Translations under genes and position numbers: made by a program
Origin: Chromatiales bacterium
GTDB lineage: Bacteria; Pseudomonadota; Gammaproteobacteria; Steroidobacterales; GCA-2729495
Length of the DNA stretch: 64,000 bases
Reading direction: 5' to 3'
Assembly (NCBI GenBank): GCA_002688175.1
Contig: NZCC01000023.1
Location: 16,592 to 80,591, forward strand
The notes under the pieces: generated by a model
What the model was told of the DNA's origin: nothing
The model's database searches: none
What the model saw: only the letters and a program-made list of their open reading frames with translations
Part shown: positions 4,508 through 60,954 of the stretch, piece by piece
How the letters are laid out: every line of letters starts with the position of its first letter
Position numbering within the stretch: the stretch's first letter is position 1

Positions 4508-4557
4508 TAATTGGTGTCAGACACCAATTCACCTATTTATACTGGTGTCAGACACCA
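4508..4557. repeat. Family A palindromes, two copies (cores 4513-4525 and 4544-4556)
   Basis: attaattggtgtcagacaccaatt and actggtgtcagacaccattt. Confidence 0.9.
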
Positions 4558-4583
4558 TTTTTAAACCGCTGTTGGCAGGGAAC

Positions 4584-5153
4584 ATGGAAGAAAATTTTTA
4601 CGAAAACGAAGAAAAGGTTGATGGCTACACAAAGTTCACGCCGACACACGATGGCGCATTACTGATCGACGTACTCGGCGAGCACCTGCCGGAACAGGCG
4701 GCCGTGCTCGAACTGGGGATTGGCCCGGGGAAAGACTTCAAAAAGTTGAGCCGGCGTTACCGGATGACCGGTTCGGATTTCTCGCAGCTGTTTTTGCAGC
4801 GATACCGCGAGCAAGACCCTGCGGCGGATTTGCTGCATCTCGACGCCCGCACGCTTGAAACGGATCGCACCTTCGATGCCATCTTTTCCAACAAGGCACT
4901 TATTCATTTGTCACCGGACGAACTGCAACAGTCGTTCAATCGTCAGCATGAGTTGCTCAGCGACAACGGCTTGATCCTGCATTCGCTCTGGTTCGGCGAG
5001 GGCGAGACTGCCTTCGATAATGTGAAACTTGTCTATCACAATGAGCAGGACCTGACGAAGATGCTGGAAACATCATTCGATATCGTCGCTCTCAAGAAAC
5101 ACGCAAAAATGTCTGACGGTGATTCCATCTACGTGTTGGCCCGAAAGAAATAA
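4584..5153 (+). CDS. Class I SAM-dependent methyltransferase
   Basis: VLELGIGPGKDFKKLS motif I; ATG 4584 preferred over the GTG at 4545 that lies in a family A repeat. Confidence 0.85.
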   Translation: MEENFYENEEKVDGYTKFTPTHDGALLIDVLGEHLPEQAAVLELGIGPGKDFKKLSRRYRMTGSDFSQLFLQRYREQDPAADLLHLDARTLETDRTFDAIFSNKALIHLSPDELQQSFNRQHELLSDNGLILHSLWFGEGETAFDNVKLVYHNEQDLTKMLETSFDIVALKKHAKMSDGDSIYVLARKK

Positions 5154-5159
5154 CATATA

Positions 5160-5178
5160 ATTGGTGTCAGACACCAAT
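5160..5178. repeat. Family A palindrome (core 5163-5175)
   Basis: attggtgtcagacaccaat between convergent stops. Confidence 0.9.
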
Positions 5179-6611
5179 CACCCGGGTTCCGGAAACGCGC
5201 CCCGCACTTGTTCGAACGCACGACCGATTGCCATTAGCCGGCGGTCCGATCCGAGCGGACCGTCGAAACTGAGGCCGATCGGCAGGCCGTCGTCGGTCAG
5301 TCCTGCTGGAATCACCAGGCTTGGGATTCCAGCTGCACTCTGGTGAACGGTGTTATTGATCACAGCGGTGAAGCCGTGTTTGATCAGTTCGCCGTTGATT
5401 TTCAGGTCCGCGGTATCTTCGGCCAGTTCAGGCGCCGGGAACGGCGTGGTCGGAAAGATCATCGCCGCCACGTCGTGTTCGACAAAATAATCCTGGAGTA
5501 TTTGCTGCAGTTGCGGACGATATGTATTCATAGCCTTACGATACTTCGGCTCGAGGGCGGCCAGATCCACGACATCGGGGTTGAACCGTTCACGCACAAC
5601 GGGTGAAGCAATGCTGGTCACAATGTCTGCGCTGGTCAGCGATGTGCCCCGCTGTTCGAGCCAGGCCGGCATCTCGCGGGCGACTTCGTAAGCTGAGATG
5701 GGCCAGGCGGTTTGCGCTGTCAGTCTGGCAATCTCCGGCAGGTCTGCATCGATGATGACTGCGCCGGCATCCTGTAGAAGAGCAACGGCTGCGTCGATGA
5801 TGTGGGCGGTTGCGTTATCCATGACGCGATAAAACTCTCCACGCGGTCGTCCGAGTCTGAGCCCGGCGAGGTTTATATCCGGCAGTGGTTCAAATGCGGT
5901 GACCGGTGACGGCTTTGCGAGCACGTGATCGAGCAACGCAAGATCCATGGTCGAAGTTGCCATGATGCCGACGGCATCGCGGGTCGGCGACGCCGGCAGC
6001 ACGCCGCCGTACGGGTAGCGTTGGCAGGACGGTCGCAAACCGGCAACCCCCGACAACGAACACGGGACGCGAACCGAACCGTTCGTGTCGGTACCCAGTG
6101 CGCCCGGAACCATGCGCGCAGCAACGGCTGCCGCCGAACCACTGCTGCTGCCCCCGGGCATGCGATCGGTATGCCACGGGTTTCTGACATCGCCGAACTT
6201 GCGGTTGAAACTCGTACCGCCGACAGCCAGTTCGTACAGGTTGGCCTTGCCGGCGATCAGTGCCCCGGCCTCGACGAGGCGCTGGACGACCGGTGCATTG
6301 TGCGCGGGTATGTCGTGTTCGAGCGCGGGCGTACCGGCGCTGGTCGGATAATCCCGTGTGTCGATGTTGTCCTTGATCAGCAGCGGCACACCATGCAATG
6401 GACCGAGAGTTTTATTTGCACGCTGTTGTTGCATATCGGCCGCGCGCGCTGCGGCCAGCAGTGCATCGGGTTCCTGCCGGATAATCGCGTTCAGGTGCAC
6501 AAACTTCCGGCAACGCGCCAGCAACTCTTCGGCTACCACCTCGGCTGAGGTCTGCCCATCCGCGATGGCCGTGGCGATTCCGGCAATGGTAAAGGGAATG
6601 TCCGTGTCCAT
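5178..6611 (-). CDS. Amidase signature family protein
   Basis: GSSSGSAAAVAARMVPGALGTDTNGSVRVP amidase signature; start placed at MDTDIPF. Confidence 0.92.
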   Translation of the reverse strand: MDTDIPFTIAGIATAIADGQTSAEVVAEELLARCRKFVHLNAIIRQEPDALLAAARAADMQQQRANKTLGPLHGVPLLIKDNIDTRDYPTSAGTPALEHDIPAHNAPVVQRLVEAGALIAGKANLYELAVGGTSFNRKFGDVRNPWHTDRMPGGSSSGSAAAVAARMVPGALGTDTNGSVRVPCSLSGVAGLRPSCQRYPYGGVLPASPTRDAVGIMATSTMDLALLDHVLAKPSPVTAFEPLPDINLAGLRLGRPRGEFYRVMDNATAHIIDAAVALLQDAGAVIIDADLPEIARLTAQTAWPISAYEVAREMPAWLEQRGTSLTSADIVTSIASPVVRERFNPDVVDLAALEPKYRKAMNTYRPQLQQILQDYFVEHDVAAMIFPTTPFPAPELAEDTADLKINGELIKHGFTAVINNTVHQSAAGIPSLVIPAGLTDDGLPIGLSFDGPLGSDRRLMAIGRAFEQVRGAFPEPG

Positions 6612-6650
6612 GAGTAACACGGTATAGCAAATCTGGTCAGCCCCCAAAGT

Positions 6651-6672
6651 AAATTGGTGTCAGACACCAATT
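6651..6672. repeat. Family A palindrome (core 6656-6668)
   Basis: aaattggtgtcagacaccaattttt. Confidence 0.9.
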
Positions 6673-6682
6673 TTTATCTTCG

Positions 6683-6748
6683 AAAAAAGGTACCGGGTTT
6701 ATTTTTTAAGAAAGAAAATAAACCCGGTACCTTTTACGGTACCTTTTA
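6683..6748. repeat. Family B inverted pair plus 12-bp tandem duplication
   Basis: aaaaaaggtaccgggtttatttttt / aaagaaaataaacccggtacctttt; then CGGTACCTTTTA x2 (6725-6748). Confidence 0.85.
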
Positions 6749-6756
6749 CGTCCAGC

Positions 6757-7752
6757 TCAAAATTCATAATCCAGTGGTCGCGACGTCGGCTGCGGCGGGA
6801 AGGTTTGCAGGTAGGCCCAGATGGCGCCGAGGTCTTGGTCCGTCATGCCCGCGAAGGTGACCCACGGCATCACTGTATTGGTGGCCAGGGTGGCTGCGCG
6901 GCCGCTGCCGCGTAGCCTGAACAACGTGATGAAATCGGCCCGGCTCAGGGCGCCGATGCCTTCGGGGTGGGTGGTCAGGTTGGGCGTATCGACGACTCTT
7001 GCACCCGGCAGGTAACGACCGCCGACCCAGTAACGGGCGCCGCCGGTAAACGCTTTGCCCTTTCGTTCTCGCCCCGGAGCATCGTTGGGGGTGTGACAGT
7101 ATCGGCAGCGACCGATGTCCGTCAGGTATTTTCCGTAGGCCGCTTCGTCAGACCGGTCCGGCGTTTTTGCGGGTGACGGCGGCAAAGTGGCCAGTGAGGC
7201 CTTGTGTATGCGGTCGCTTAACACCCGGCCGCGGCCGGGTTGTTCGTGAACCACCGGCGGGAGTGTCTTTATATAGGTGGCGATGGCGTCGGCATCCTCG
7301 TCGCTGACGGCGCGCAGGTTCAGCCACATGTTGGGATGCAGTGGCGCACCATCGGGTCGCAACCCGTCCCGGAAGGCGCGAATGATGTCGGCTTTAGACC
7401 AGCCGGCGATGCCAGTGGCAGGATCCGGCGTGATGTTGGGTTCGCACAATTTCGAGGTCACGAAATCCTGTGAGTCTTTGCCGCGCGGATTTTCGTCTTT
7501 CCCCCAGACCGGGCAGTCGATGCCGGCATAGTTGGCGACCAGCGGCGGCCTGCCGTCGATCGCATCGTTCGGTGCTGAATGACAATGGGCACAGAGTGTG
7601 ACGGTCTCCGCCAGGTAGCGGCCGCGTTCCAGGGTTGCGTTCTGCCCGGCGTCGGCATCGGCGCCTGCAGGGCCGGGCAACCACAGCAACAACGTGAAGT
7701 TGATTGTCGCGCAGGCAAGTCTGCGTATCCTGGATGTGACTGGAATCCTCAT
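6757..7752 (-). CDS. Di-haem cytochrome c, exported
   Basis: Two CxxCH motifs (CAHCH, CRYCH), signal peptide. Confidence 0.9.
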   Translation of the reverse strand: MRIPVTSRIRRLACATINFTLLLWLPGPAGADADAGQNATLERGRYLAETVTLCAHCHSAPNDAIDGRPPLVANYAGIDCPVWGKDENPRGKDSQDFVTSKLCEPNITPDPATGIAGWSKADIIRAFRDGLRPDGAPLHPNMWLNLRAVSDEDADAIATYIKTLPPVVHEQPGRGRVLSDRIHKASLATLPPSPAKTPDRSDEAAYGKYLTDIGRCRYCHTPNDAPGRERKGKAFTGGARYWVGGRYLPGARVVDTPNLTTHPEGIGALSRADFITLFRLRGSGRAATLATNTVMPWVTFAGMTDQDLGAIWAYLQTFPPQPTSRPLDYEF

Positions 7753-7820
7753 TGTGATACTCGCTCCCCCGATTCGACCGGACGCCGGATACCCCGAAGG
7801 CTACCACAGGCCCATGTGAT

Positions 7821-7878
7821 GATAGTGTCAGACACCAACGACCAACCCTTCATGCAATAATGGTGTCAGACACCAATA
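7821..7878. repeat. Family A copies (degenerate 7825-7837; core 7862-7874)
   Basis: gatagtgtcagacaccaa and atggtgtcagacaccaat. Confidence 0.8.
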
Positions 7879-7937
7879 ACCACATGAGTATGACCCATGA
7901 CTAATTGCCGCCGAGGCCCGTTACAGCGTGTGTTATT

Positions 7938-7957
7938 GATGGTGTCTGACACCAATG
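7938..7957. repeat. Family A palindrome at a start codon (core 7941-7953)
   Basis: atggtgtctgacaccaat. Confidence 0.85.
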
Positions 7958-9219
7958 TCCGGGTCGTTGCTGTCGCGATAATGATGTTTGCGGCGGTAAC
8001 GGGTTTTGCCGATGAACCGCTGCCACCGATCGTGGTGCCTGACGGTTTTAGTGCGACTGTTTTTCATCCCGGCCTCGGCGCCACCCGGCATCTCGCGGTA
8101 CGCGAAAACGGCGACGTGTACGTCGCGCGCAGTTTCCGTGTCGAGCGGCGGATGTTCGGGCAGAAAGCTGCCTGGGGCACGCTGATCGCTTTACGGGATG
8201 AAGACGCCGACGGTGTTGCTGACATCATCAAGCCGTTCGGTCCGAGCGACGTCACAACTGAAGTGCGTATTCATGACGGACATTTGTATTTCTCATCCGA
8301 CCAGGTCGTTTACCGGATGGCGCTCGATGACAACCTCGTGCCGCAGACCGTGGCCGAACCCCTCGCCGGCGGTTTCCCGATGAACAGTTCACACGGCACC
8401 AAGACGCTGGCCTTCGACGGTGCGGGCAACCTGTACGTGAACTCGGGTACGCCGTCGAATGCCTGCGAGTCAAAGCGCATGGCGCTCCACGCGCCGGGTT
8501 TGAACCCGTGTCCGCATCGCGAGCGTTCGGCCGGCATCTGGAAATTTCGCGATGACAAGCAACATCAGGACCAGGTGCGTGACGGTGAACGCTATGTCAC
8601 CGGTACGCGCAACATCGTCGCGATGGCGTGGAACCCGTGGGCCGACAAACTCTTTTTCGTTATGCACGGCCGTGACAGCATCGGCATGATGAACCCGGAT
8701 TTCTACTCGAAGCAAGACAACGCCGAGATCCCCGCCGAGGAATTTCATGTCGCCGAAGCGGGCGATGATTTCGGCTGGCCATACACGTATTACGATCCGC
8801 GCACCAACCAGCGCATGCGCGACCCCGGTTATGGTGGCGATGGCAAGGCCGTAGCGGACGGCAATTACAAAGAACCGCTGATCGCGTTTCCCGCGCACTG
8901 GGCACCGAACGACCTGCTGTTCCATTCCGGTCGCAATCTGCCCGCCCGGTATGCGCAGGGTGCGTTCATCGTGTTTCACGGTTCCTGGAACCGGATACCG
9001 TTTGAGCAGGGCGGCTTCAAGGTTGTGTTCGTGCCGATGCAGGATGGCCGGGTGACGGGTGACTGGGAGGTGTTCGCCGATGGGTTCACAGGCTCTGGTC
9101 CCATTAAAAACCCCGGCCAGTCCGCGTACCGACCGACCGGTCTCGCGGAAGGCCCGGACGGCGCGATCTACATCACCGAGGACATGCACGGGCGGATCTG
9201 GAAAGTATCGCCTGAATAA
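7938..9219 (+). CDS. PQQ-dependent sugar/sorbosone dehydrogenase-like protein, secreted
   Basis: Beta-propeller sequence PPIVVPDGFSATVFHPGLGATRHLAVRENGDVYVA; signal peptide; start codon overlaps a family A repeat (ATGGTGTCTGACACCAAT = MVSDTN). Confidence 0.8.
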
Positions 9220-9238
9220 AGTCAGCCCGAGAAAATAA

Positions 9239-10057
9239 TTAATTGGTGTCTGATGCCAATGTTTGAGATTCCTGCCACTGGCCTGAACGGTTGCGTTTCA
9301 TCGTATTGCGATATTCATAAAGGTCCGGTCGGTACAGGCTTTCCATGACGAGGACCGGTTGGTCCTGTTGATCATGAAACACGGTGCCCATGTAAATCAG
9401 GGCCGTTCCCACCGGTATGTTCAGTAGCGGTGCTGTCGTTTCATCGGCGTTCCTGGCGCTGATCCACTGCTCGGCACGTTCCAGCAAGATGCCGTTGGAT
9501 TCGAGTACAGCGGGTGGCGGCATATTTTTTAAGGTCTGGTGATCCAGGTCTGTTACATGTGCTGCCGTGAACCAGGCGGTCATGATCGTAAACGGCTTGC
9601 CGCGACTGCTGCGCAACCGGATTAAGCGCAGCATGTTTTGTTCATCAGTATCACGGGTTAGTTTTTCCCTGATATGAGCGGGCGCCTTGACGCTCTCGAT
9701 GGACAGGGTGCTGGGTCGGGCACTGTCCTCTGGGTCGGTAGCGGCTGCGTCCGGCCCGCCGATGTTGTAGCGGTCGCCAAATTCCACTGCCTGGGGCACG
9801 GGGAAACTGCCAATACCGCGACGTTTGATGATAAGGCCGTCCTGCTCCAGGTTGTGCAACGCCTTGCGGATGGTGATCCGCGCAACGCCAAATTCCTGCG
9901 CCAGCCGGTTTTCGCCGGGCAGCGGGTGGTCGGTATCCAGTTCACCATCGATGATCTTCTGGCGCAGGATGATGTAAATCTGGTGGTACAGGGGGGTTAG
10001 CCTGGGTTCTTCCCTGCCGATGCGGTTCCGGGCGGCCTGTGTTTTGTTCGTCATCAA
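9239..10057 (-). CDS. GntR-family transcriptional regulator with UTRA domain
   Basis: LYHQIYIILRQKIIDGELDTDHPLPGENRLAQEFGVARITIRKALHNLEQDGLI wHTH; C-terminal UTRA-like region. Confidence 0.92.
   Translation of the reverse strand: MMTNKTQAARNRIGREEPRLTPLYHQIYIILRQKIIDGELDTDHPLPGENRLAQEFGVARITIRKALHNLEQDGLIIKRRGIGSFPVPQAVEFGDRYNIGGPDAAATDPEDSARPSTLSIESVKAPAHIREKLTRDTDEQNMLRLIRLRSSRGKPFTIMTAWFTAAHVTDLDHQTLKNMPPPAVLESNGILLERAEQWISARNADETTAPLLNIPVGTALIYMGTVFHDQQDQPVLVMESLYRPDLYEYRNTMKRNRSGQWQESQTLASDTN
9241..9260. repeat. Degenerate family A copy overlapping the GntR stop region
   Basis: aattggtgtctgatgccaat; encodes ...ASDTN-stop of the GntR gene. Confidence 0.75.
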
Positions 10058-10107
10058 TCACTCTGTCGGGTTATTGCGGTAAATACGTATGCCAGGTTTC
10101 CGATCAG

Positions 10108-10129
10108 CCTGTACTATCAATAGTACAGG
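10108..10129. promoter_or_regulatory. Putative GntR operator in the divergent promoter
   Basis: CCTGTACTAT-ca-ATAGTACAGG perfect 10-bp arms between gntR-like and Rieske genes. Confidence 0.7.
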
Positions 10130-10150
10130 TTTTTTACAGAGGATAGAAGA

Positions 10151-11284: not shown

Positions 11285-11428
11285 GCCCTAAGCCCTAATC
11301 CCCAGGCGCTTAAGGTTATTCTGCGACATCGGGGCGGGCGGGAATATCGCCCGTCCTGATGCTCGTCCACTTCATCGTGGCAGTTCTGCCTGTTACCCAC
11401 TAAAGTTACGATTCTCCATTCAACCGTA

Positions 11429-12310: not shown

Positions 12311-12332
12311 TTACTTGTTGCGTGCCGCTTTG

Positions 12333-13445: not shown

Positions 13446-13488
13446 TTCAGGACCTGTGCAAAGATCTACCGATAGAAACATCTTAACG

Positions 13489-13514
13489 CAAAAAAGGTCC
13501 GGGTCTATTTTCCT
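13489..13514. repeat. Family B repeat (single)
   Basis: caaaaaaggtccgggtctattttcct. Confidence 0.65.
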
Positions 13515-13564
13515 GTTATCCGTGTATTATCGGGTTCCACGGCTCGCTAAAAAGACTAATAAAT

Positions 13565-14598: not shown

Positions 14599-14699
14599 CA
14601 TTTGTGTCAGACACCAATTTATTTTTTCTCTGACGGGTAAGCAACAAATTCGGTGCTGAGAAAAATAAACCCGGCACCTATTTGCCTTACCTATTTGCC
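14599..14699. repeat. Composite repeat A(degenerate)+spacer+B, with 11-bp duplication ACCTATTTGCC x2
   Basis: tttgtgtcagacaccaatttattttttctctgacgggtaagcaacaaattcggtgctgagaaaaataaacccggcacctatttgccttacctatttgcc. Confidence 0.85.
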
Positions 14700-15655: not shown

Positions 15656-15752
15656 AATGGTGTCAGACACCATTCAATTTTTAGACACCAATTTATTTTC
15701 TCTAACGGTTAAGCCATAAATTCGGTGCTGCGAAAAATAAACCCGGCACCTT
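15656..15752. repeat. Composite repeat A+spacer+B, second copy (A core 15659-15671)
   Basis: tggtgtcagacacca...gacaccaatttattttctctaacggttaagccataaattcggtgctgcgaaaaataaacccggcacct. Confidence 0.88.
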
Positions 15753-16438: not shown

Positions 16439-16460
16439 TTAACCGGTGAAGCATTGCTGT

Positions 16461-16487
16461 CCGACACCGTTATCACCCCGGTGTCGG
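16461..16487. terminator. Stem-loop between convergent genes
   Basis: CCGACACCG-ttatcaccc-CGGTGTCGG, 9-bp perfect arms. Confidence 0.6.
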
Positions 16488-17661: not shown

Positions 17662-17681
17662 AATTGGTGTCAGACACCAAT
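17662..17681. repeat. Family A palindrome in a divergent promoter region (core 17666-17678)
   Basis: aattggtgtcagacaccaat. Confidence 0.9.
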
Positions 17682-19117: not shown

Positions 19118-19135
19118 TGGGTGTCAGACACCAGT
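19118..19135. repeat. Family A palindrome (core 19120-19132)
   Basis: tgggtgtcagacaccag immediately after TAA stop. Confidence 0.88.
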
Positions 19136-20239: not shown

Positions 20240-20303
20240 GGTGTCAGACACCAATGAACGAAAGATCTGCCCGGTAGACTATTTTTGGTGTCAGACACCA
20301 ATT
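20240..20303. repeat. A-spacer-A composite (cores 20240-20252 and 20287-20299)
   Basis: ggtgtcagacaccaatgaacgaaagatctgcccggtagactatttttggtgtcagacaccaat. Confidence 0.9.
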
Positions 20304-20323: not shown

Positions 20324-21337
20324 ATGCGAGTCGACCTCATTATTCAACCACACCTCCCGGCGGAGGAGTTTGCCGCGCTCGGTGAACTGGCCGAGCGTTA
20401 CGGTATTTCGGGTGTCTGGGTATCCAATCACCTCGATGGCCGCGATCCGTTCGTGAATTTTGTGCCGCTGGCTCAGCGCACCCGGCAGTTGCGCATGGGG
20501 CCGACGGCACTGAGCCCGTACGAAGAGCATCCGATGCAAATGGCCAAGTTGCTGATGACGCTGAATGAGCTGGCCGGCGGGCGGGCGCAGGTTGCGGTCG
20601 GTGGCGGAGGCGGCACGATCGATTCGATGGGTTTGAAGGCAGTGCGCATGGTGCGCGCGGTGCGTGAGTGTCTCGAGATACTGCACCTGGCGGCTTCACG
20701 CGATCGGGTTTTTTACGAGGGCGAGTTGTTTCAGATGCGCGGGCTTGATACGGGTTGGGCAAAAGCGCCGAAGCCTGCGATCTTTGCTGCGGCGAACGGT
20801 GAGCAGATGCTGCGTATGTCGGCGCGTTATGCCGATGGCATCATGACCAGCGACTTCACGCCGGAACGGCTGCGCTGGGCACGGGGACATATGGACCCGG
20901 TGCTTGAAGAAACGGGTCGCGACAAGCATGCGTTCCCGCTGATCAATTTCTGGGCCTGTCATATCAAGGAAACGCATGAAGAAGCCATGGCTGAAGCGCG
21001 GTTGTACCTGATGGCACGAGGCACGATCTGGGATCCGTATATTTTTGACGTCGTCAACACCGGGGAAGCCGCCGAGATCGCCAAACATTACCCGGCTTTC
21101 GTGAAGGCCTATCGAAAAACAGATGACATCCAGGGCCCGCCGCGTGAACTCGTCAACAAAATTGTCGAACGCGGTGTAACCGCCTGTGCCGCCAGCGAGA
21201 TCGACGGCCAGATCGAACGCTTCAAAGCAATGCATGCGGCGGGCGCGACGGGTGTCGCACTGTGCCTGTATAACGAGCCGGCAGATGCCATCCGGGTGAT
21301 CGGCGAACACATCGTACCGGCGCTTAAAGACCTCTGA
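20324..21337 (+). CDS. LLM-class flavin-dependent (F420/FMN) oxidoreductase
   Basis: Luciferase-like fold sequence, GELAERYGISGVWVSNHL, AVGGGGGTIDSMGLK. Confidence 0.9.
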   Translation: MRVDLIIQPHLPAEEFAALGELAERYGISGVWVSNHLDGRDPFVNFVPLAQRTRQLRMGPTALSPYEEHPMQMAKLLMTLNELAGGRAQVAVGGGGGTIDSMGLKAVRMVRAVRECLEILHLAASRDRVFYEGELFQMRGLDTGWAKAPKPAIFAAANGEQMLRMSARYADGIMTSDFTPERLRWARGHMDPVLEETGRDKHAFPLINFWACHIKETHEEAMAEARLYLMARGTIWDPYIFDVVNTGEAAEIAKHYPAFVKAYRKTDDIQGPPRELVNKIVERGVTACAASEIDGQIERFKAMHAAGATGVALCLYNEPADAIRVIGEHIVPALKDL

Positions 21338-21467
21338 AGAAATTGGTGAAGAAATTGGTGTCAGACACCAATGAACGGACACCAATGAACGGAAGATCCT
21401 CCTGGTAGATTATTTTTGGTGTCAGACATCAATGCTTGATTGAATTAGATTTGGTGTCTGACACCAA
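21336..21467. repeat. A-spacer-A composite, second copy, plus third A (cores 21357-21369, 21418-21430 degenerate, 21453-21465)
   Basis: Includes tandem duplications GAAGAAATTGGT x2 and GACACCAATGAACG x2. Confidence 0.9.
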
Positions 21468-22624: not shown

Positions 22625-22641
22625 GGGGTGTCTGACACCAG
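22625..22641. repeat. Family A palindrome (core 22627-22639)
   Basis: ggggtgtctgacaccagc between convergent stops. Confidence 0.85.
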
Positions 22642-24801: not shown

Positions 24802-24820
24802 TGGGTGTCAGACACCAATT
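24802..24820. repeat. Family A palindrome (core 24804-24816)
   Basis: tgggtgtcagacaccaatt. Confidence 0.88.
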
Positions 24821-27921: not shown

Positions 27922-27940
27922 TGGGTGTCAGACACCAATT
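27922..27940. repeat. Family A palindrome (core 27924-27936); shortened relative ATTGGTggcACCAATT at 27961-27976
   Basis: tgggtgtcagacaccaatt. Confidence 0.88.
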
Positions 27941-28376: not shown

Positions 28377-28392
28377 TGGTGTCAGACACCAA
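28377..28392. repeat. Family A palindrome abutting TAG stop (core 28378-28390)
   Basis: tggtgtcagacaccaa. Confidence 0.9.
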
Positions 28393-28415
28393 ATACTCGT
28401 AGTAAAATTTCTCCC

Positions 28416-29078
28416 ATGCCACATGCAATCGTCACCGGAGCGAACCGCGGTATCGGACTGCAGCTTTGTCTTGCCCTGAAGGATCGCGGTTACCGCGTAA
28501 CGGCCCTGTGCCGGCAACGTGGTGATCTGCCGGCGGCGGTGGGCATCGAGATTCAGGAAAACTATGACGTTACCGATGGTGCGGCCATTGAGGCTTTCGC
28601 GCGGTCGGTCGAGCCCGGTACGGTTGATCTGTTGATTAACAATGCCGGCATTCTGCGCAGCACGTCACTGGATAACCTGGACCTTGCATCGGCACGGCAA
28701 CAATTTGAGATTAATGCGCTGGGTCCGTTGCGCGTGACCCAGTCGTTACTGCCCGCGCTGAAGGATGGCGGCAAGATCGCGCTGGTAACGAGTCGCATGG
28801 GATCCATCGCGGATAATGATTCGGGTGGCAGTTATGGTTACCGTATGTCCAAGGCGGCCCTGAATGCGGCTGGTATGTCGCTGGCCAGGGATCTGCATGA
28901 ACGGGGGATTGCAGTTGCCATCCTGCATCCCGGCTATGTCAGGACCGACATGACCGGTCAATCCGGGCTGATAGATACCGATGAGTCTGTCGACGGTATG
29001 CTCGAACGCATTGATGAGCTGAATCTGAGCAACTCCGGCAGCTTCTGGCACACCAATGGCGAATTGCTGCCCTGGTAA
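28416..29078 (+). CDS. SDR-family oxidoreductase
   Basis: VTGANRGIGLQL, NNAG, YRMSKAAL motifs. Confidence 0.93.
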   Translation: MPHAIVTGANRGIGLQLCLALKDRGYRVTALCRQRGDLPAAVGIEIQENYDVTDGAAIEAFARSVEPGTVDLLINNAGILRSTSLDNLDLASARQQFEINALGPLRVTQSLLPALKDGGKIALVTSRMGSIADNDSGGSYGYRMSKAALNAAGMSLARDLHERGIAVAILHPGYVRTDMTGQSGLIDTDESVDGMLERIDELNLSNSGSFWHTNGELLPW

Positions 29079-29093
29079 AGAGAGGCCGCAGGA

Positions 29094-29170
29094 AATTGGT
29101 GTCTGACACCAATTAAATACGGTGAAATGGTGTCTGACACCAAAGTGAGTAAGGGTGTCTGACACCAATT
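29094..29170. repeat. Array of three family A palindromes (cores 29098-29110, 29129-29141, 29154-29166)
   Basis: All three have central T. Confidence 0.92.
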
Positions 29171-31873: not shown

Positions 31874-31892
31874 ATTGGTGTCTGACACCAAT
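31874..31892. repeat. Family A palindrome (core 31877-31889)
   Basis: attggtgtctgacaccaat. Confidence 0.9.
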
Positions 31893-32421: not shown

Positions 32422-32435
32422 TGGTGTCTGACACC
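32422..32435. repeat. Family A copy (core 32423-32435)
   Basis: tggtgtctgacacc. Confidence 0.82.
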
Positions 32436-32450: not shown

Positions 32451-33380
32451 ATGACGAATAAAACCGGTTTTGCTTTCAGTGAACTGACCCTTAACTATCG
32501 GTCCTCTCCGCGGCACCCAGAAAGTCCCGAGCGGTTGCAGAAGTTGGTAGACCGGGCCACAGAGACCGGCATTCTTCAGGATACCGTGGACATTTCTTCC
32601 TACGGAGATGCCGAACCCTTTTTATCCAGTATTCATAATGAAGAACATATTCAATCCATCCTTAGCGGGCAGACCCACGCGAGGGAGGCTGCACTGGAGG
32701 CACTTGGATTGTCTTTGGGGTCAGTGCGGGATGTTTGCAGTGGAGAACTTAACAATGCTTTTTGCGCCGTTCGCCCCCCGGGGCATCACGCGCATAACCA
32801 TGGCGCGAACTACGATGCACTGGGAGCGGGCGAAGGGTTCTGTTTCTTTAATAACATCGCCATTGCGGCCCGCTATGCCCAGAGCTTGCCCGGTATTGCC
32901 CGGGTGATGATTGTCGACTGGGATTATCATCATGGTAATGGCACGGAATGGGCTTTTTACCAGGACCCGTCGGTTTATTTTTTTTCCACACATGAATGGC
33001 AGGCTTATCCCGGCACCGGTAACCCGGAGCGTTTGGGAGCCGGCCCCGGAACGGGTTACAACCTGAATGTTCCCCTGGTTGCGGGTGCCGGGGATGAAGA
33101 GGCGATGCGTGCCTATGCTGAACAGGCGGCAGCGGCAGCGGATAAATTTAATCCTGACCTGATTCTGATCTCGGCAGGATTCGACAGCAGGGTGGATGAT
33201 CCCCTGGGCACTTTTCAGATTACCGATGCAGGCTTTAGCCGGCTGACCAGACTGATGATGGAGCTTGCCGACCACCATTGTGAGGGTCGGCTGGTGTCCT
33301 TTCTTGAGGGTGGTTATAACGAGAATGGCCTTGCTCTGGCCGCCTGTGCGCATCTGGAGATGCTAAAAAGTGGTGTCTGA
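32451..33380 (+). CDS. Histone deacetylase-family (acetoin utilisation/APAH-like) protein
   Basis: RPPGHHAHNHGA, VDWDYHHGNGT, ISAGFDSRVDDPLG motifs; stop TGA lies inside a family A repeat. Confidence 0.93.
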   Translation: MTNKTGFAFSELTLNYRSSPRHPESPERLQKLVDRATETGILQDTVDISSYGDAEPFLSSIHNEEHIQSILSGQTHAREAALEALGLSLGSVRDVCSGELNNAFCAVRPPGHHAHNHGANYDALGAGEGFCFFNNIAIAARYAQSLPGIARVMIVDWDYHHGNGTEWAFYQDPSVYFFSTHEWQAYPGTGNPERLGAGPGTGYNLNVPLVAGAGDEEAMRAYAEQAAAAADKFNPDLILISAGFDSRVDDPLGTFQITDAGFSRLTRLMMELADHHCEGRLVSFLEGGYNENGLALAACAHLEMLKSGV

Positions 33381-33386
33381 CGCCCA
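33371..33386. repeat. Degenerate family A copy containing the stop codon of the HDAC-like gene
   Basis: tggtgtctgacgccca. Confidence 0.75.
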
Positions 33387-34792: not shown

Positions 34793-34835
34793 CGTTAATT
34801 GGTGTCTGACACCCATTAACGGACACCCATTAACG
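34793..34835. repeat. Family A palindrome (core 34801-34813) with 14-bp tandem duplication
   Basis: CGTTAATtGGTGTCtGACACCcATTAACG; GACACCCATTAACG x2. Confidence 0.9.
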
Positions 34836-51343: not shown

Positions 51344-51351
51344 TGGGCCTT

Positions 51352-51371
51352 TTTGGTGTCTGACACCAATG
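51352..51371. repeat. Family A palindrome (core 51355-51367)
   Basis: tttggtgtctgacaccaat. Confidence 0.9.
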
Positions 51372-51382
51372 ATTTTGGTTGG

Positions 51383-52615: not shown

Positions 52616-52914
52616 AGTTGACCCTGATAATCTCTGGCGCCTTGTATAACCACTAAATATAGGGGTTCCGGGCTTATGGGGGGTTATGCTGGGTCACAGT
52701 TTGTGAGACTGACGGGGAAGCGGTCGGTCAGGGGCTTCCGAGTCTTTTTGTGGGCGGATATTCCCATCTTGAGTCCCGCCAATACGCTACAGAAAGGGCG
52801 TTAAGGTTTCAGAGGGGTTACCTGACAAAAATGCCGCCCAGTGTACTCCTGTCAATCGTGGCTAAAGGCCACTGGAAATACACTGACGCGTAAATGGTTG
52901 CAATTAAAGGTGTG

Positions 52915-52951
52915 CAGTGGTGCCTGACTTTTCAGTTGTCAGGCACCACTG
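52915..52951. repeat. Long perfect hairpin related to family A
   Basis: CAGTGGTGCCTGAC-ttttcagtt-GTCAGGCACCACTG, 14-bp perfect arms. Confidence 0.8.
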
Positions 52952-52965
52952 CCACAGTTGCCGGG

Positions 52966-54165: not shown

Positions 54166-54355
54166 GACATCTCTCCTGCGAATGGCTTATTCTTTATCTG
54201 TCTGGGAACACCTTAGCGTAGCAAGGTCAACACGCCAAGTTCTACCCGTATATACGCCTATATGACTGGAATTGGCAGACAAGCAAGGGGTAAACGGGCC
54301 ATTTGATCGTATCAGGTTTAGCGCTTTGTCCACTCTTTGGTTTGGAGAAATACCA

Positions 54356-55504
54356 ATGAAAAGCCTCATTTGTTATCTGTACCCTTTGCTGCTCTGTGGC
54401 GTATTGCTGACCGGCTGTGGTCCGGCCGAGAACCGAAGTGCGGTCCAGGCCAATAGTCAGGATATGGAACCGGTTCCGCAACTGGTGCGGGCTGACGGTT
54501 CCTATCCCACCCGGCCTCTCGAGAAAGATACGATTGTCGTCAAGGTTATTCAGAATGGCGTGACCAATTTGCAGGAATCTGCAACAGTCGAAGCGGGGCT
54601 CAGGGAGAATCTTGAGCACATGATCAGGCTCGCGAAGCAGGCCTGCAGCGAAGGGGGCAAACCGGATTTTCTCCTCTATAACGAGTTTCCCTTAACCGGA
54701 TATTCAACCGGTACACGGGAGGAGAAGCTTAAATTTACGTTGCAGATACCCGGACCGGAGACGGAGCGGTTAGGGGAGGTTGCCAGGGAGTGTGATACCT
54801 ACATAATTTTCGGCAGCTACGCTCAGGATGCAGACTGGCCAGGGCATATACTCAGCATTAACACTGTCATCGGCAGAGACGGCAAGATCGAACAGAAGTT
54901 CTGGAAGACCCGGAACATCAAACGCCTCTCTCCGGGTATCGAGATTCCGACTACTACGATTGAAAGTGTGCGTGACAAGTATCGGGCCCGCTATGGAATT
55001 GAAGCCGAATTCCCGGTGCTGCAAACAGAATTCGGTAACATTGCCGTCAGCACTGTGCAGCTCGATCCATTTGTCTTTGCCGCTTTTAGTATGCGTGGTG
55101 TCGAGATCATGTTCCGCACGGCAACACTTTTTTCACCCATCGATGTCAAGGCAACGGCCCTGTACAACAATTTCTACTCAGCCATGTCGAACATTATCTT
55201 TCCTGCCGACAGTGAAGCTGCCGCGTTCGGCGGCAAGTCTCTTATCGTCGGGCCGCGAGGACAGGTTCTGGCTGAAGACCCGAGTAATAACGAGGGCATT
55301 ATCGAAGCGGAAATTCCGATCGCCGAGCTCAGGAAGAACCGCCGTATCCCACGGTTCCCGTTGCAGGTGGTGGCACCGGTGTTTGCGCAGTTTCAGCAGG
55401 AAGCACCTCTGAATCATATGGATATACCCGCCGAGCAGTTGCCGAAGACCCGCGAGGAAATGAAAGCATTACTCGATAACGTGAGTCGCTGGCTGAATGA
55501 GTGA
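54356..55504 (+). CDS. Nitrilase/carbon-nitrogen hydrolase-like lipoprotein, apparently without catalytic Cys
   Basis: Lipobox LTGC; YNEFPLTGYS (Glu), KFWKTRN (Lys), but IAVSTVQLDPFVFAAFSMRGVEIMFR where the Cys is expected. Confidence 0.75.
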   Translation: MKSLICYLYPLLLCGVLLTGCGPAENRSAVQANSQDMEPVPQLVRADGSYPTRPLEKDTIVVKVIQNGVTNLQESATVEAGLRENLEHMIRLAKQACSEGGKPDFLLYNEFPLTGYSTGTREEKLKFTLQIPGPETERLGEVARECDTYIIFGSYAQDADWPGHILSINTVIGRDGKIEQKFWKTRNIKRLSPGIEIPTTTIESVRDKYRARYGIEAEFPVLQTEFGNIAVSTVQLDPFVFAAFSMRGVEIMFRTATLFSPIDVKATALYNNFYSAMSNIIFPADSEAAAFGGKSLIVGPRGQVLAEDPSNNEGIIEAEIPIAELRKNRRIPRFPLQVVAPVFAQFQQEAPLNHMDIPAEQLPKTREEMKALLDNVSRWLNE

Positions 55505-55530
55505 TGTGGATACCCGGGCCGTATGCGGGT

Positions 55531-55887
55531 CTAGTCAATCCTGAAGTGGCGCAAGCCGAAGTAGGTGGCAAGGGCGACCAGGTGATAAAGAATAAATCCA
55601 CGCAGCATAATCAGTTGTGATGGTTCGATGACAAACCAGTCGGGAACCAGGCTGAACAGCAGGATCTCGGAGATTGCCGCAATAAAAAATGCGTATAGGC
55701 CCCAGGATTTTTGTTGCCATAAACCCATGGCAGCAATCGTATCTACGATGCCGTAAAGAATATCGCTGAGTTGCCACGAAAGCGGCGCTTCCAGAAAAGG
55801 TGTGCGGCCGAATCCAAGGATGCTGCCTATGTGTAATACTGCTGCGAAAGCATAGATGATCGCCAGGATGCGCAGGAATATCTTCAT
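55531..55887 (-). CDS. Small 4-TM membrane protein
   Basis: Complete hydrophobic ORF. Confidence 0.65.
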   Translation of the reverse strand: MKIFLRILAIIYAFAAVLHIGSILGFGRTPFLEAPLSWQLSDILYGIVDTIAAMGLWQQKSWGLYAFFIAAISEILLFSLVPDWFVIEPSQLIMLRGFILYHLVALATYFGLRHFRID

Positions 55888-55906
55888 CGTATATTAAGGC
55901 TAAAAA

Positions 55907-56168
55907 TTATTTAGCCAGTACAAGGATTTTTTCAGTAAATTCCTGTGCCGAGTGAATGCCCTGTATGCGTTCGGCAACCGAGCCATCTCGTGCCAGCAGG
56001 TAGCTGGTCGGCAGTGATAGCACCGTCTCCACCAACAGCGATTTCAGGACTGATAGCGCGCCGACCTGCATCGCTGATGCGTTGCCCGTCCGCCTGTGCA
56101 ACCGTGGAAATGACCAGTAAGCTAATCAGCAGTGCATAACGCCACAGAAAAACAGTGATTGTATTCAT
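55907..56168 (-). pseudogene. Remnant of a TlpA/thioredoxin-like protein
   Basis: Signal peptide MNTITVFLWRYALLISLLVISTVAQA in one frame and LPTSYLLARDGSVAERIQGIHSAQEFTEKILVLAK in another; CxxC region missing. Confidence 0.5.
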
Positions 56169-56187
56169 GAGCGTCCCCGGAATATCT

Positions 56188-56583
56188 TTACTTCTCAACG
56201 GATTCTACCTGCCCGATGTCTTCCACCCACTGGCTGAATCCGCCACCCATATGACTGACATTTTCAAATCCCATTTTTCTGACCGTCTGTGCGGCCAATG
56301 CAGATCTCAGGCCCAGGGCGCAGTGAAAGATGATTTCCTCTGCCTGGTCAAAGAAATCTTTGTAATAAGGGCTGTCCGGGTCAATCCAGAATTCAAGCAG
56401 CCCACGCGGCACATTGATTGAGCCGGCAATTTTGCCTTCCTTTTTTAACTCCCGGTAATCGCGAACATCGATCAGCAGCACGTCTTCTTTGCCGATACGC
56501 TCATTGACTTCTCCGGGCGTTAACGTTTCTATTTCACGCTCGGCCCGCGCAACCAGTTCTTTGCTGCCCAACTTCAGTTTCAT
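56188..56583 (-). CDS. Rhodanese-like domain protein
   Basis: LLIDVRDYRELKKEGKIAGSINVPRG; active-site loop CALGLRSA. Confidence 0.9.
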   Translation of the reverse strand: MKLKLGSKELVARAEREIETLTPGEVNERIGKEDVLLIDVRDYRELKKEGKIAGSINVPRGLLEFWIDPDSPYYKDFFDQAEEIIFHCALGLRSALAAQTVRKMGFENVSHMGGGFSQWVEDIGQVESVEK

Positions 56584-56613
56584 CTCGGGTTTTCCTGTAC
56601 GTGGTTAGGGTAA

Positions 56614-57222
56614 TTATTTTATCGCCTGAATTGTTTTTACGATGTCTATAAATATGTGATTGACGGCGGTAACTGTAAAACCAGCGGCTTTGACGTTGGC
56701 AACGGTATCGCGATCCAGTTCCGGACCAAAGCGGCTGGCCAGCGGGGTCATGAGTTTCATCATTATGCTGAACGGAAACAGCCGGCTGCCGGTGTGTTCG
56801 AACATATGTAGTTCGCCGCCTGGTTTGAGGACGCGACGGAGTGCCTGCAACCCTTCAATGGGCCTCGGTACCGAACAGAAGGAGCAGGAAGTGAAGACCT
56901 GGTCGAATGTATCCGGTTGGAACTCCAGATCATGCACATCCATGACCTGTGCCGATATAGAACCCTGGTAGGCAGCGATGCGTTTCCCGGCTAATGCGAT
57001 CATCTTCGGGCTGATATCGATTGCCGTGATGTCACGGTCGGCAGGAAAACAACAGATGTCGAGACCGGTGCCCAGTGCCATGAACAGGATCTTCGCATCG
57101 GGTTTCATGTGTGAGAATATCTTTAACTTAGCTGGCCTCCAGCGCCACTCGGGGCCGTATGAAGACATCAGGTCGAAGTTGGCTGCAGCCTTGTCCCATT
57201 TTCTTTGAGTTGCGGTATCCAT
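56614..57222 (-). CDS. Class I SAM-dependent methyltransferase
   Basis: KILFMALGTGLDICCFPADRDITAIDISPKMIALA; LRRVLKPGGELHMFEH. Confidence 0.88.
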   Translation of the reverse strand: MDTATQRKWDKAAANFDLMSSYGPEWRWRPAKLKIFSHMKPDAKILFMALGTGLDICCFPADRDITAIDISPKMIALAGKRIAAYQGSISAQVMDVHDLEFQPDTFDQVFTSCSFCSVPRPIEGLQALRRVLKPGGELHMFEHTGSRLFPFSIMMKLMTPLASRFGPELDRDTVANVKAAGFTVTAVNHIFIDIVKTIQAIK

Positions 57223-57224
57223 GT

Positions 57225-57584
57225 TTAGTCCCTGATCGTTTGCGGGCTGCTCATGACCGCATTCAAAGTGTAGATAACCACGATGACGGCACAGCCCGTG
57301 CCGACGCCCCAATAAAAAATTGTGACTCCGGCCAGGGGCCACATGCCGCCCCACATGCCACCGAGCATGCCGCTCAACATACACGGGGTCAGGATTTCCA
57401 TGGCGCCAAAAAACGGCGCTACCGGGATGAGGCTCAGGGGCAGGGCAATGATCATCCCGAGCAGCATGCCGGGGACCATCCCCCATGCACCGCCCAGCAG
57501 CCAGGCGGTCAGGGCTACGCTCACCGTGGCGATGAAGGCATTGGCGAGCAGGTCACCGATGACGAAATACGGTCGCTTTTCCAT
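57225..57584 (-). CDS. Small Gly/Met-rich membrane protein
   Basis: Hydrophobic ORF directly upstream of methyltransferase on same strand. Confidence 0.65.
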   Translation of the reverse strand: MEKRPYFVIGDLLANAFIATVSVALTAWLLGGAWGMVPGMLLGMIIALPLSLIPVAPFFGAMEILTPCMLSGMLGGMWGGMWPLAGVTIFYWGVGTGCAVIVVIYTLNAVMSSPQTIRD

Positions 57585-57649
57585 AATTATCCCCGGGCAG
57601 ACAATAGCCTGATTCTACCGCTGGGAACGGGCATCCGAAACAGGAAAAT

Positions 57650-59317
57650 TTAAAATCGCTTCGGTCGCAACAATTGTTCCGGCCACCTGGCCGTAACCCG
57701 TTGCAGTGCTTCGGGGGCTTCGCTTTCGAAGACGGTCCGGTTGAGTTCCTGGTAGAAAGGCGGTCCGCCTTCCTCGGGCCATTGACGGGTTGCATCGATA
57801 ATAACTTTACTGGTGGTTTTGCGGTCCGGGGCGGCCGGGTCCAGCGCGAACGCGCGACGATTTTCAAAAATCCGGGTCGCCAGTGACGGTTGCCAGCGTG
57901 AACCGACGGCGAAGCGTACGGCGGCCGAATCCATGATATCGATATCATCATCGACGACGATTACGACCCGTGCCAGTGGGTTGAACATGGCGGTGGGTTT
58001 GGCCACTTCAATGGCCTGGCCGGGCTTGCTCTTTTTTATGCTTATATATACAAGTCCCTGCGAGTCATGCGGTGAATGGTAGTTGACGACTTCAGGATGC
58101 GACTTGCGCAGCGTGTACAGGACTGATGCAGTTTGTGGTGCTGTTATGTACTCGGCGATCACGCCGGTAAAACTGTTCATGACCCATGGGTTTTTACGGT
58201 GTGTCAGGGTGTCGACCGTCAGTACGTAGTTTTTGTCTTTGGGGATGCCCATGTAGCCGTACATTTCATGGTACGGACCTTCGGGCTCAAGGTTAATGAT
58301 GTCGACCGTACCCTCGATGACTATTTCAGCCTGTGCCGGCACGAGAAATTCACCGCTCTCGGTACGCACCACATCGATAGCCTTGCCGCGCAGCCCACCG
58401 GCGACGGCCAGTTCGTCAATCGGATTGCGATTGCCGAGGCGATTCGGAATGCGTGAACTGCTGACCATCCACGTCATGGGATCCTGGCCGATGACCAGCG
58501 CTACCGGTATGCTGACTTCACCACGCTCCAGTGCCGCCTTGACCATCTTGATACCGGTTTGTCCGGCTTCGAAATTAACCATGATCTTGCGCGGCCCCTT
58601 GACCTGGCAGCGGTAAGTGCCGAGGTTGACGCCCATGTCAGGATCTTTGGTGAACACCGAGGCGGTGTTGATGTAGGGTCCGCCGTCACCCGGATTGCCG
58701 CGAAAAAATGGGAACGCGGTGATATCGACTGCGTCGCCGGTTTTTCTGATTGTTTTACAGGGCGCTTCTTGTTTGGCAATTTCATGTGGTTCGATCAGCG
58801 CGTAGCTCCCGGCCTGTTTTTCCAGCTGCTCAAGATGCATTTTTTTTGCTGCTCTGAAAGCAGTGGTCGGGTCATGTGGGTCGCGCGGCAGGTCCCACAA
58901 AATGGCTTCAGCGTCCCAGTGACCTTGCAGGTTGGCGACTACCGGGCTGTTGAATGACTGACCGTTAGCTGTGATGTCATCGAACCAGACGGCCGGTGCA
59001 CCGTGTACGCCAAATGAGTCGACCAGCTGGTACATGATGGCTGTCGCCTCGTAGCCGTCCTGATCGACACCGGAAAAGCGCTGCAACAGGCCGTGTTTAT
59101 CCAGTGCTTCGACATAGTCACGCAGCGAATCGAAAGGAGGTCGCGGTGCGTTGATACCGGTGTCTGGTTTGGTCATTGAGCGCTTCATGGCGCCTTGCGT
59201 TTCGGTGCCGGCCCCTGCAACTGAGGTGGCGGCCATGGCCATGCCGGATGCCATCAGTTTGCGGCGCGTGAATTCGAAGGGGTGGGTATGATCGGCAGGT
59301 ATGTTGCGGTTCGCCAT
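57650..59317 (-). CDS. UbiD-family decarboxylase-like protein with apparent Tat signal
   Basis: Start MANRNIPADHTHPFEFTRRKLMASGMAMAATSVAGAG; downstream UbiD-like LRDYVEALDKHGLLQRFSGVDQDGYEATAIMYQ. Confidence 0.82.
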   Translation of the reverse strand: MANRNIPADHTHPFEFTRRKLMASGMAMAATSVAGAGTETQGAMKRSMTKPDTGINAPRPPFDSLRDYVEALDKHGLLQRFSGVDQDGYEATAIMYQLVDSFGVHGAPAVWFDDITANGQSFNSPVVANLQGHWDAEAILWDLPRDPHDPTTAFRAAKKMHLEQLEKQAGSYALIEPHEIAKQEAPCKTIRKTGDAVDITAFPFFRGNPGDGGPYINTASVFTKDPDMGVNLGTYRCQVKGPRKIMVNFEAGQTGIKMVKAALERGEVSIPVALVIGQDPMTWMVSSSRIPNRLGNRNPIDELAVAGGLRGKAIDVVRTESGEFLVPAQAEIVIEGTVDIINLEPEGPYHEMYGYMGIPKDKNYVLTVDTLTHRKNPWVMNSFTGVIAEYITAPQTASVLYTLRKSHPEVVNYHSPHDSQGLVYISIKKSKPGQAIEVAKPTAMFNPLARVVIVVDDDIDIMDSAAVRFAVGSRWQPSLATRIFENRRAFALDPAAPDRKTTSKVIIDATRQWPEEGGPPFYQELNRTVFESEAPEALQRVTARWPEQLLRPKRF

Positions 59318-59397
59318 GTGTTTCACCTCATCATCAATATGAGCGGTATTCTTTCATAAAATTAGTGTCTGACCCCATTTAATCCTACTATCCCCCG

Positions 59398-60093
59398 ATG
59401 GAAGTCACGTTACAGTGTCTGTTGGCATTACTGGCCTTCACGACGGTCGCCAAGGCAAATGACCCAGCCGAGGTGTTGGTGTTCGGCGGTACGGGCCGGC
59501 TGGGCGCACCGATCGTCCGGTTGCTGGTCGAGGCGGACTACCCGGTCACTGTATTTGCGCGGCCAACATCGGACCGTGGTCGACTGGCAGACCTCGAGGT
59601 GGCCTACCTGGTCGGCGATCTGATGGATGCCGACAGCGTGGTCGAGGCGATCAGAGGTCAACCGTTTAGCCTGGTGATCGATGCTTCCGCCCGGGGTCTG
59701 GGTGGTGATCCGTTCTATATCGCCGCCATGCGGAACATACTGGCGGGCGTAGCTGCGAGTCCTGTTCAGCAGTTCATCCTGCATGGTTCGGTCGGTGCCG
59801 GCGAGAACATGCAGCAATTTCCGGAGGTTGGTTTCGAGCGAATGCGCGATGTCATGATTGCGAAGGGGGAGGCCGAGGCCTTGCTGAAGGCCAGCGGCAT
59901 CCCGTACACGATTATTCGTAATGGCCTGGTCAGGCCGGACGGTACCCCGGCCACCGGCACCGCGCGGTTGACCGAGGATGATCGGGTTCTGGGGGTCGCA
60001 ACGCGTCTGGATCTGGCGGCCCTGACCCTGCAATGCCTGGAAAACCAGGCGTGCATGAACAAGACTTTTCACGCGGTAGATGACAGCTTCTGA
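59398..60093 (+). CDS. NAD(P)-binding (atypical SDR/NmrA-like) protein
   Basis: VLVFGGTGRLGAPIVRLLVEADYPVTVFARP. Confidence 0.88.
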   Translation: MEVTLQCLLALLAFTTVAKANDPAEVLVFGGTGRLGAPIVRLLVEADYPVTVFARPTSDRGRLADLEVAYLVGDLMDADSVVEAIRGQPFSLVIDASARGLGGDPFYIAAMRNILAGVAASPVQQFILHGSVGAGENMQQFPEVGFERMRDVMIAKGEAEALLKASGIPYTIIRNGLVRPDGTPATGTARLTEDDRVLGVATRLDLAALTLQCLENQACMNKTFHAVDDSF

Positions 60094-60135
60094 TCAGGGT
60101 CAGAGTCGTTGTTTGTGACCGGGGAGTGGGTGCAG

Positions 60136-60909
60136 ATGCTTGAGAAAATTCAGGTCATAATTTTCCCCGTAATGTGCGGGCTGGTATTTTTTGCCGGGCT
60201 GATGGGTGTCAGCCAGGGTCTCGTGGCCTGGAATGCAGCGTTATCACCGACCATTCCCTGGTTTCCAATCCCGGCATTGGCGCTGATTGTTACGGCAACC
60301 TGGTGGGTTAATCGCCGCTGGCCGATTCGCCTGGCCCGGCCGGCGGGTGGCAGGGCTTATGTCGTTATCCTGCTGGCGACTTATGCCGTGATCTGTCTGG
60401 GGGTTCTTGAATCCTGGTTTCACAACCTGGTGACTCCCGCACCTGCCTGGCCCGATGAAACTGTTTCTGCGGGCTTTCAGCTGGTTTTTTTACTGGCGAT
60501 TCCTTTCATCGCGGCATTACTGGCGGAAGTCGGATTTCGCGGCATGATGCAGACGGCACTGGAGAAAGTGTTACCCGTCTGGCCCATGTTGTTGCTGATT
60601 GCGGTCATTAACTTCCTGATGCATTTTTATGATCCCGATCAGGGCAGCCAGGTGATGCGCATGATTACGCTGAACCTGGTCTGGGGTTATATCACCTGGC
60701 GGGTACAGTCCATTCGACCGGCGCTGGTCGCACATATCGTGATGAATATCGCTATACCCTTGTTGCAATACGGATCTGAGCAATACGGGCCGGGGCCCGT
60801 GCCGTTCGGTGCATTTCCGCTCGGTACGCTGGTGATCTCGGCGGTAAGCGGAGTCATTGCGCTCACCGCAGCGATTGTGATCGGCAAGCGTTTACCGAGG
60901 ACAGCGTAG
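60136..60909 (+). CDS. CPBP-type intramembrane protease-like membrane protein
   Basis: LAEVGFRGMMQTAL, NFLMHF and ALVAHIVMNI motifs. Confidence 0.72.
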   Translation: MLEKIQVIIFPVMCGLVFFAGLMGVSQGLVAWNAALSPTIPWFPIPALALIVTATWWVNRRWPIRLARPAGGRAYVVILLATYAVICLGVLESWFHNLVTPAPAWPDETVSAGFQLVFLLAIPFIAALLAEVGFRGMMQTALEKVLPVWPMLLLIAVINFLMHFYDPDQGSQVMRMITLNLVWGYITWRVQSIRPALVAHIVMNIAIPLLQYGSEQYGPGPVPFGAFPLGTLVISAVSGVIALTAAIVIGKRLPRTA

Positions 60910-60936
60910 CGGGTTACGCCTGCACGCTTAAAAAGC

Positions 60937-60954
60937 TGGTGTCAGACACCAATA
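60937..60954. repeat. Family A palindrome between convergent stops (core 60938-60950)
   Basis: tggtgtcagacaccaat. Confidence 0.9.

Follow-up and report, generated by a model that had tools for sequence, protein, structure and literature searches.

A dispersed, REPIN-like palindrome family in a bacterial MAG, probably belonging to a subclass-2.1 RAYT

Why does one short palindrome recur in gap after gap between the genes of a bacterial contig, and what would have spread it there? This question is raised by a window of 64 kb, the whole stretch of DNA that was analysed, which corresponds to C23:16592-80591 of a MAG of 2.6 Mb (84 contigs, 81% complete; labelled G000). The first-pass annotation had reported 25 perfect cores at a frequency beyond chance, and the counts bear this out. 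The exact core GGTGTCWGACACC occurs 25 times in the window, the first at 4513 and the last at 60938, and with up to two mismatches there are 36 matches (25 exact, 4 with one mismatch and 7 with two) compared to 1.30 expected, the highest count among 100 shuffles being 4. The two-mismatch matches at 928, 6179 and 38577 lie within long ORFs and are probably due to chance. The genome-wide count is not at background either, with 89 exact copies in the whole 2.6-Mb genome and 0 for the reversed control of the core. The palindrome had originally been given as TTGGTGTCWGACACCAA, of which the 13-bp core stands in all 25 exact window copies; the full 17-mer is perfect in 10 of them, and the other 15 retain only the core. 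None of the papers searched prints the palindrome sequence.

Alignment of the 89 copies yields the 21-bp palindrome AATTGGTGTCWGACACCAATT as consensus, with no conservation further than ~5 bases beyond the core. According to a simple gene caller, which assigns 86.6% of the sequence to coding regions, 80 of the 89 exact copies are intergenic and the remaining nine overlap gene ends, in agreement with the near-total intergenic placement described before. In the 433 kb of sequence fetched, these 89 exact copies are accompanied by 12 copies with one mismatch and 19 with two, the reversed control having 6 two-mismatch matches there. Since exact copies far outnumber mismatched ones, the family is either young or maintained. 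The density per kb of gap is ~2.5 in convergent, ~1.5 in tandem and ~0.75 in divergent gaps. Such an enrichment past stop codons and in convergent gaps, together with an RNA hairpin of -8.4 kcal/mol, would suit intrinsic terminators or mRNA 3'-end hairpins that are selected as such. However, only 10 of 88 copies have at least 7 T among the 12 nt that follow the stem (mean 4.1 compared to 3.2 expected), and terminators neither share one exact 13-mer nor bracket a transposase gene. This explanation is exceedingly improbable as the primary one, but the palindromes may additionally act as hairpins at transcript ends, a side role that is known for REPs.

The palindrome is symmetric save for its central A or T, which is the sole mark of direction, and the window copies are listed here by this base without a strand. 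Exact copies with an A centre are located at 5163..5175, 6656..6668, 15659..15671, 17666..17678, 19120..19132 (3 bp past a stop codon), 24804..24816, 27924..27936, 28378..28390 and 60938..60950, and exact copies with a T centre at 22627..22639, 31877..31889, 32423..32435, 34801..34813 and 51355..51367. One mismatch is seen at 7824..7836 (AGTGTCAGACACC), 14603..14615 (TGTGTCAGACACC) and 33372..33384 (GGTGTCTGACGCC), and two at 9245..9257 (GGTGTCTGATGCC), 16456..16468 (GCTGTCCGACACC, intergenic) and 59364..59376 (AGTGTCTGACCCC, of a mixed GGTGTC/GGGGTC type). The remaining copies are grouped. Two exact A-centred palindromes stand in tandem, 18 bp apart, at 4513-4525 and 4544-4556; an A...T pair with a 66-bp spacer occupies 7862-7874 and 7941-7953, its second copy overlapping a predicted start; two A-centred palindromes at 20240..20299 are separated by 34 bp; and three exact T-centred palindromes (29098, 29129 and 29154) follow one another at 29098..29166. 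A further cluster at 21357..21465 consists of an exact A copy (21357-21369), a one-mismatch A copy (21418-21430) and an exact T copy (21453-21465). A spacer and palindrome resembling those of 20240..20299 reappear at ~21383-21430.

Neighbouring copies have a preferred order. Among neighbours at most 120 bp apart, nine are A...T and none T...A in this genome, and the ratio is 26 to 3 once relatives are included (two-sided binomial ~1.5e-5), where the 26 pairs are partly dependent, several of them stemming from spacer families or being related by descent. For the GGGGTC version of the palindrome the ratio is 7:1. Direct AA or TT neighbours number 26, as many as the A...T pairs, and many copies are single. 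Some pairs share their spacer (88-93% identity) although their flanks are unrelated (34-50%), both in the genus mate G003 (L031:7737/L037:2243, L008:2971/L027:367 and L003:6764/L018:2640; records JAJFJS01, isolate OFTM71, assigned to G003 by matching coordinates and sequence) and on contig C57 of the own genome (L078:6094 and 6869). As the spacer is shared despite unrelated flanks, what is copied is the whole two-palindrome pair, as for REPINs (PMC8049555). Inverted pairs of fixed order with variable spacers, duplication of the pair as one unit (clearest in G003, with one case on C57) and many dispersed, mainly intergenic copies are thus features that this family has in common with REPs and REPINs. 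A 5' GTAG or GTGG tetranucleotide at the hairpin foot is absent from the 89-copy alignment, where AATT forms the foot on either side, and therefore the element is not a canonical GTAG REP.

A mobiliser outside the window had been proposed, together with a search for a Y1 or RAYT ORF flanked by the motif, and such a gene was indeed found. The 64-kb window itself yielded no Y1 transposase or RAYT. The genome contains two PF01797 genes, and the one on contig C64, called R1 here (236 aa, ORF L001:1465-2175), is bracketed by the same palindrome. An A...T pair lies upstream at 1405 and 1444 of L001, 60 and 21 bp before the R1 start, with 8 bp between the end of the second copy and the ATG, and a third copy at 2146 lies inside the ORF end, just before the stop. 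R1 narrowly passes the NCBIfam model NF047646, 'REP-associated tyrosine transposase' (80.5 at a cut-off of 80), has Y1_Tnp as its only Pfam domain and has no sequence match among solved structures at E 0.001. Its motifs NHVH, WE and YIELNP at a length of 236 aa are those of TnpA_Y1 subclass 2.1, the TIRYT type. A C-terminal HTH-like domain is also characteristic of this type, and the Pfam search of R1 gave Y1_Tnp alone. The second PF01797 gene (L002, on C67) was rejected as mobiliser; it scores below the NCBIfam cut-off and is without a flanking palindrome.

The type of palindrome tracks the RAYT clade in related genomes. The three closest R1 relatives found (G003:C146, G018:C17 and G027:C237; 59-60% identity) carry GGTGTCWGACACC or its GGGGTC/GACCCC version GGGGTCWGACCCC on their flanks, and neither perfect palindrome was seen at the flanks of RAYTs less than 50% identical to R1 in related genomes. 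Together with R1, the palindrome-flanked RAYTs, four in all, make up one side of a branch supported at 87/85. G003, whose RAYT has GGGGTCTGACCCC, carries 48 copies of the GGGGTC version compared to 6 in G000. Within the genus, the exact core counts are 89, 24, 9 and 121; the 24 and 9 copies belong to G001 and G002, in which no PF01797 gene was found at a completeness of 73% and 78%, respectively. In a class sample of 369 genomes, an exact copy occurs in 17, and more than one in only two, namely G000 with 89 and G064 with 15. G064 is from another family and combines the same core with other outer arms, CAAT...ATTG; no RAYT was found near its copies in the contigs fetched. As the core is the same and the arms differ, its perfection or acquisition was not a single event.

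Beyond these closest relatives, distant RAYTs of the class (41-50% identical) often bear the inverted repeats GGGGTCAGAn.../...nTCTGACCCC. Of 29 class-wide RAYTs, 14 are preceded by GGGGTCAGA and followed by TCTGACCCC within ~220 bp, where the chance of one such 8-base motif (GG.GTCAGA) in a ~220-bp window is ~0.007 by hand calculation. The motif GGGGTCAGACTC itself is amplified in G253 (32 copies) and G178 (33 copies), mostly in plus-then-minus pairs ~30, 60 or 80 bp apart, in the orientation that corresponds to A...T here, and it is absent from the 13 control genomes without an R1-like RAYT at E 1e-40. The TIR consensus of TIRYTs and TIRtrons is GGGGWSAS (Di Nocera 2013, PMC3733652); the class-wide flanking repeats fit it, the R1 flank GGTGTCAG is one base off, and the G003 relative carries GGGGTCAG. 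On these sequence comparisons, the likeliest origin of the perfect palindrome is the TIR core of TIRYT transposases.

The strong clustering of the copies is a point absent from the first-pass annotation. Within the window, 22 exact copies fall into 30 kb, compared to a highest value of 9 in 2000 random placements of 89 copies, and contigs C23, C32, C57 and C64 (~172 kb) together carry 62 of the 89. The RAYT contig C64 is homologous to DNA that lies amid C23-like DNA in G002. Bin contamination is unlikely as the source of the clustering, as the window and C32, C37 and C5 are mostly 85-88% identical to G002, with similar GC. The clustering might, as a guess, stem from copying in the neighbourhood of the RAYT. 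A simple REPIN model would not lead one to expect copies so extremely clustered, which counts against a REPIN-like reading of the family.

Comparison with the genus mate G002, which is 85-88% identical over most aligned DNA, gives a mixed picture. Copies conserved in position across species had been named as favouring a transcription-factor site or a terminator over a mobile repeat, and this expectation holds for some sites and not for others. Orthologous palindromes are shared at 20240, 20287, C5:10966, C37:13860 and C32:47600; those at 17666, 19120 and C32:30668 are decayed in G002, as are the one-mismatch copy at 14603 and half of the exact copy at 32423, of which only the left half persists; and 27924, C5:10904 and C32:41816 have no counterpart, the orthologous site of 27924 being without a palindrome. 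Against G002, where 86-88% identity blurs absent sites, no single insertion was found that could be traced cleanly to an empty site of exactly reconstructable sequence. Partial conservation of this kind is more in keeping with repeats inserted at different times, some old and some new, than with a maintained operator.

An operator of a global transcription factor, such as a perfect palindrome of the TetR or GntR type, would account for the perfect symmetry, for a size of 13-21 bp that is usual for operators, for the 89 exact compared to 12 one-mismatch copies in 433 kb, which resemble a maintained sequence, and for the copies common to G002. However, the palindromes have their lowest density per kb in divergent gaps, the usual place of operators, and lie nearest to 3' ends, more than one copy occurs in only 2 of 369 class genomes, and in G002 orthologous sites have decayed or stand empty. 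Tandem clusters, oriented pairs, spacer-sharing pairs at unrelated loci and the linkage to a RAYT would also be left unexplained. An operator is thus already largely contradicted and has hardly any probability left. The alternative of a transcription-factor site or terminator, as raised at the outset, fits poorly with the few genomes involved, the decayed sites and the rare U-tracts, and only its 3'-end aspect may survive as a side role.

A different role is suggested by two palindrome-bounded blocks of the window (REARRANGEMENT) that are missing in G002, namely 5163-9245 (4.1 kb, three genes), which runs from an exact copy to the two-mismatch copy at 9245..9257, and 28378-29154 (0.78 kb, one gene), which ends in the last of the three tandem copies. 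The G002 joint of each missing block is a single palindrome exactly there, and the gene of the second block is located elsewhere in G001. These joints would be expected if the palindromes were recombination joints or cassette borders, kept for the gain, loss and shuffling of gene blocks. However, rearrangement against G002 and G001 is no more frequent in palindrome-bearing gaps than in the others (13/23 and 24/43; p = 1), two further palindrome-bordered blocks have ragged joints, and deletion between identical repeats accounts for both exact joints. As there is no excess of rearrangement at palindromes, the two block losses are treated as recombination between repeats and not as cassette movement, and maintained borders are very unlikely. 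It is unlikely in nearly the same degree that the palindromes are movable ends between which the RAYT excises and re-inserts whole genes, the 30-kb cluster being a gene-cassette array. The two exact palindrome-to-palindrome joints are compatible with such an array; repeat deletion is simpler, and the gap test is unsupportive.

The palindromes are very probably REP- or REPIN-like non-autonomous mobile elements, mobilised by the RAYT on C64 or a relative of it. The original proposal of a REP-like non-autonomous family is upheld by the flanked RAYT, by the pairing of palindrome and RAYT in three further genomes and by the same-spacer pairs at unrelated places. A REP-like mode of working appears strongly supported by this anatomy. 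The missing GTAG foot, the many single copies and direct neighbours, and the copies in G001 and G002, where no PF01797 gene was found, count against it. The unit would be the 21-bp AATTGGTGTCWGACACCAATT, either alone or paired in inverted A...T order at a distance of 20-106 bp. When single-stranded, presumably on the lagging-strand template, the palindrome is predicted to form a hairpin whose stem has 9 bp and whose loop is CAG or CTG. This hairpin would be bound by the HuH/Y1 transposase from C64 or a relative, with the loop orientation serving as a strand mark that may determine strand choice. The transposase would then cut beside the hairpin, and the pair would be copied or inserted at another intergenic site by a putative choice of target.

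Among known systems, the family most closely recalls the REPs and REPINs with RAYTs (TnpA_REP) of Bertels groups 2 and 3 in E. coli, Pseudomonas and Stenotrophomonas (PMC2817692, PMC3116915, PMC8266576). Like these, it comprises short, dispersed intergenic palindromes in oriented inverted pairs with variable spacers, with a REPtron arrangement around a low-copy RAYT and a palindrome type that follows the RAYT clade. Unlike these, it lacks the 5' GTAG/GTGG foot, has a near-perfect symmetry in which only the central base is asymmetric, is strongly clustered in one region and has a RAYT of subclass 2.1 instead of 2.2 or 2.5. Subclass 2.1 corresponds to Bertels group 1 and has a median length of 238 aa (Quentin 2018, PMC6006769), close to that of R1, and no REP-like sequences were reported near its genes (PMC6006769). 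Self-complementary and dimeric TIR families were noted earlier in S. maltophilia (TIRYT/TIRtron literature; PMC3733652). In contrast to TIRYTs, the core here is a perfect palindrome with 89-121 copies and REPIN-like pairs. The enzyme family and hairpin ends are shared with IS200/IS605, whereas no tnpB was seen beside R1, which is single-copy and vastly outnumbered by non-autonomous copies.

The family would therefore be of a known kind, namely REPIN-like elements, with an unexpected branch of transposases, the TIRYT-type subclass 2.1. This subclass (group 1) is the largest RAYT-like branch besides the IS200 transposases and was reported to be REP-less, and here it appears together with REPs. 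The series of flanks from GGGGTCAGAnT inverted repeats to GGGGTCWGACCCC and GGTGTCWGACACC suggests how a dispersed REP family can arise from the end sequence of a transposase. This would, if confirmed, provide a direct handle on the origin of REPs, as well as on whether the loop (CAG or CTG) instead of a GTAG foot underlies recognition.

The exact palindromes are clustered regionally, with 62 of the 89 lying within about 172 kb on four contigs (C23, C32, C57 and C64) of the 2.6-Mb genome. Two gene blocks of the window (5163-9245 and 28378-29166) are missing in the genus mate G002, as seen by comparison with its stretches L098 and L104, and the joints of both blocks are exact palindrome-to-palindrome. 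In a second genus mate, G001 (L095), the window gene 28416-29078 has its counterpart downstream of a homologue of gene 20324-21337. One stretch shared by C23 and G002 (L069:1934-3611 and L098:2922-4582) is 96% identical, in surroundings of about 86% identity; this could be due to a recent transfer or to genes under strong conservation.

A second repeat, AAAAGGTRCCGGGTTTATTTT, was observed singly or as inverted pairs. It occurs in the window at 2815, 6689-6731 (a clean inverted pair), 14663, 15735, 19222 and 35410, and in the sampled stretches L069, L071, L078 and L081. It frequently adjoins the palindromes and is also present close to the RAYT on C64.

Similar palindromes occur in G064, a genome of another family (f21, loci L154-L160), as 15 GGTGTC and 12 GGGGTC copies with different outer arms (CAAT...ATTG); a RAYT was not found in this 62% complete genome. 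Two unrelated genomes of the class, G178 and G253 (L161-L166), contain 32-33 copies of GGGGTCAGACTC, most of them in oriented inverted pairs. In the Firmicute Neobacillus mesonae (L041), GGTGTCAGGCACC at 3203 and GGTGTCTGACACC at 3280, separated by 77 bp, hint at a similar repeat family. The GGGGTCAGACTC copies apparently represent additional REPIN-like families of subclass-2.1 RAYTs.
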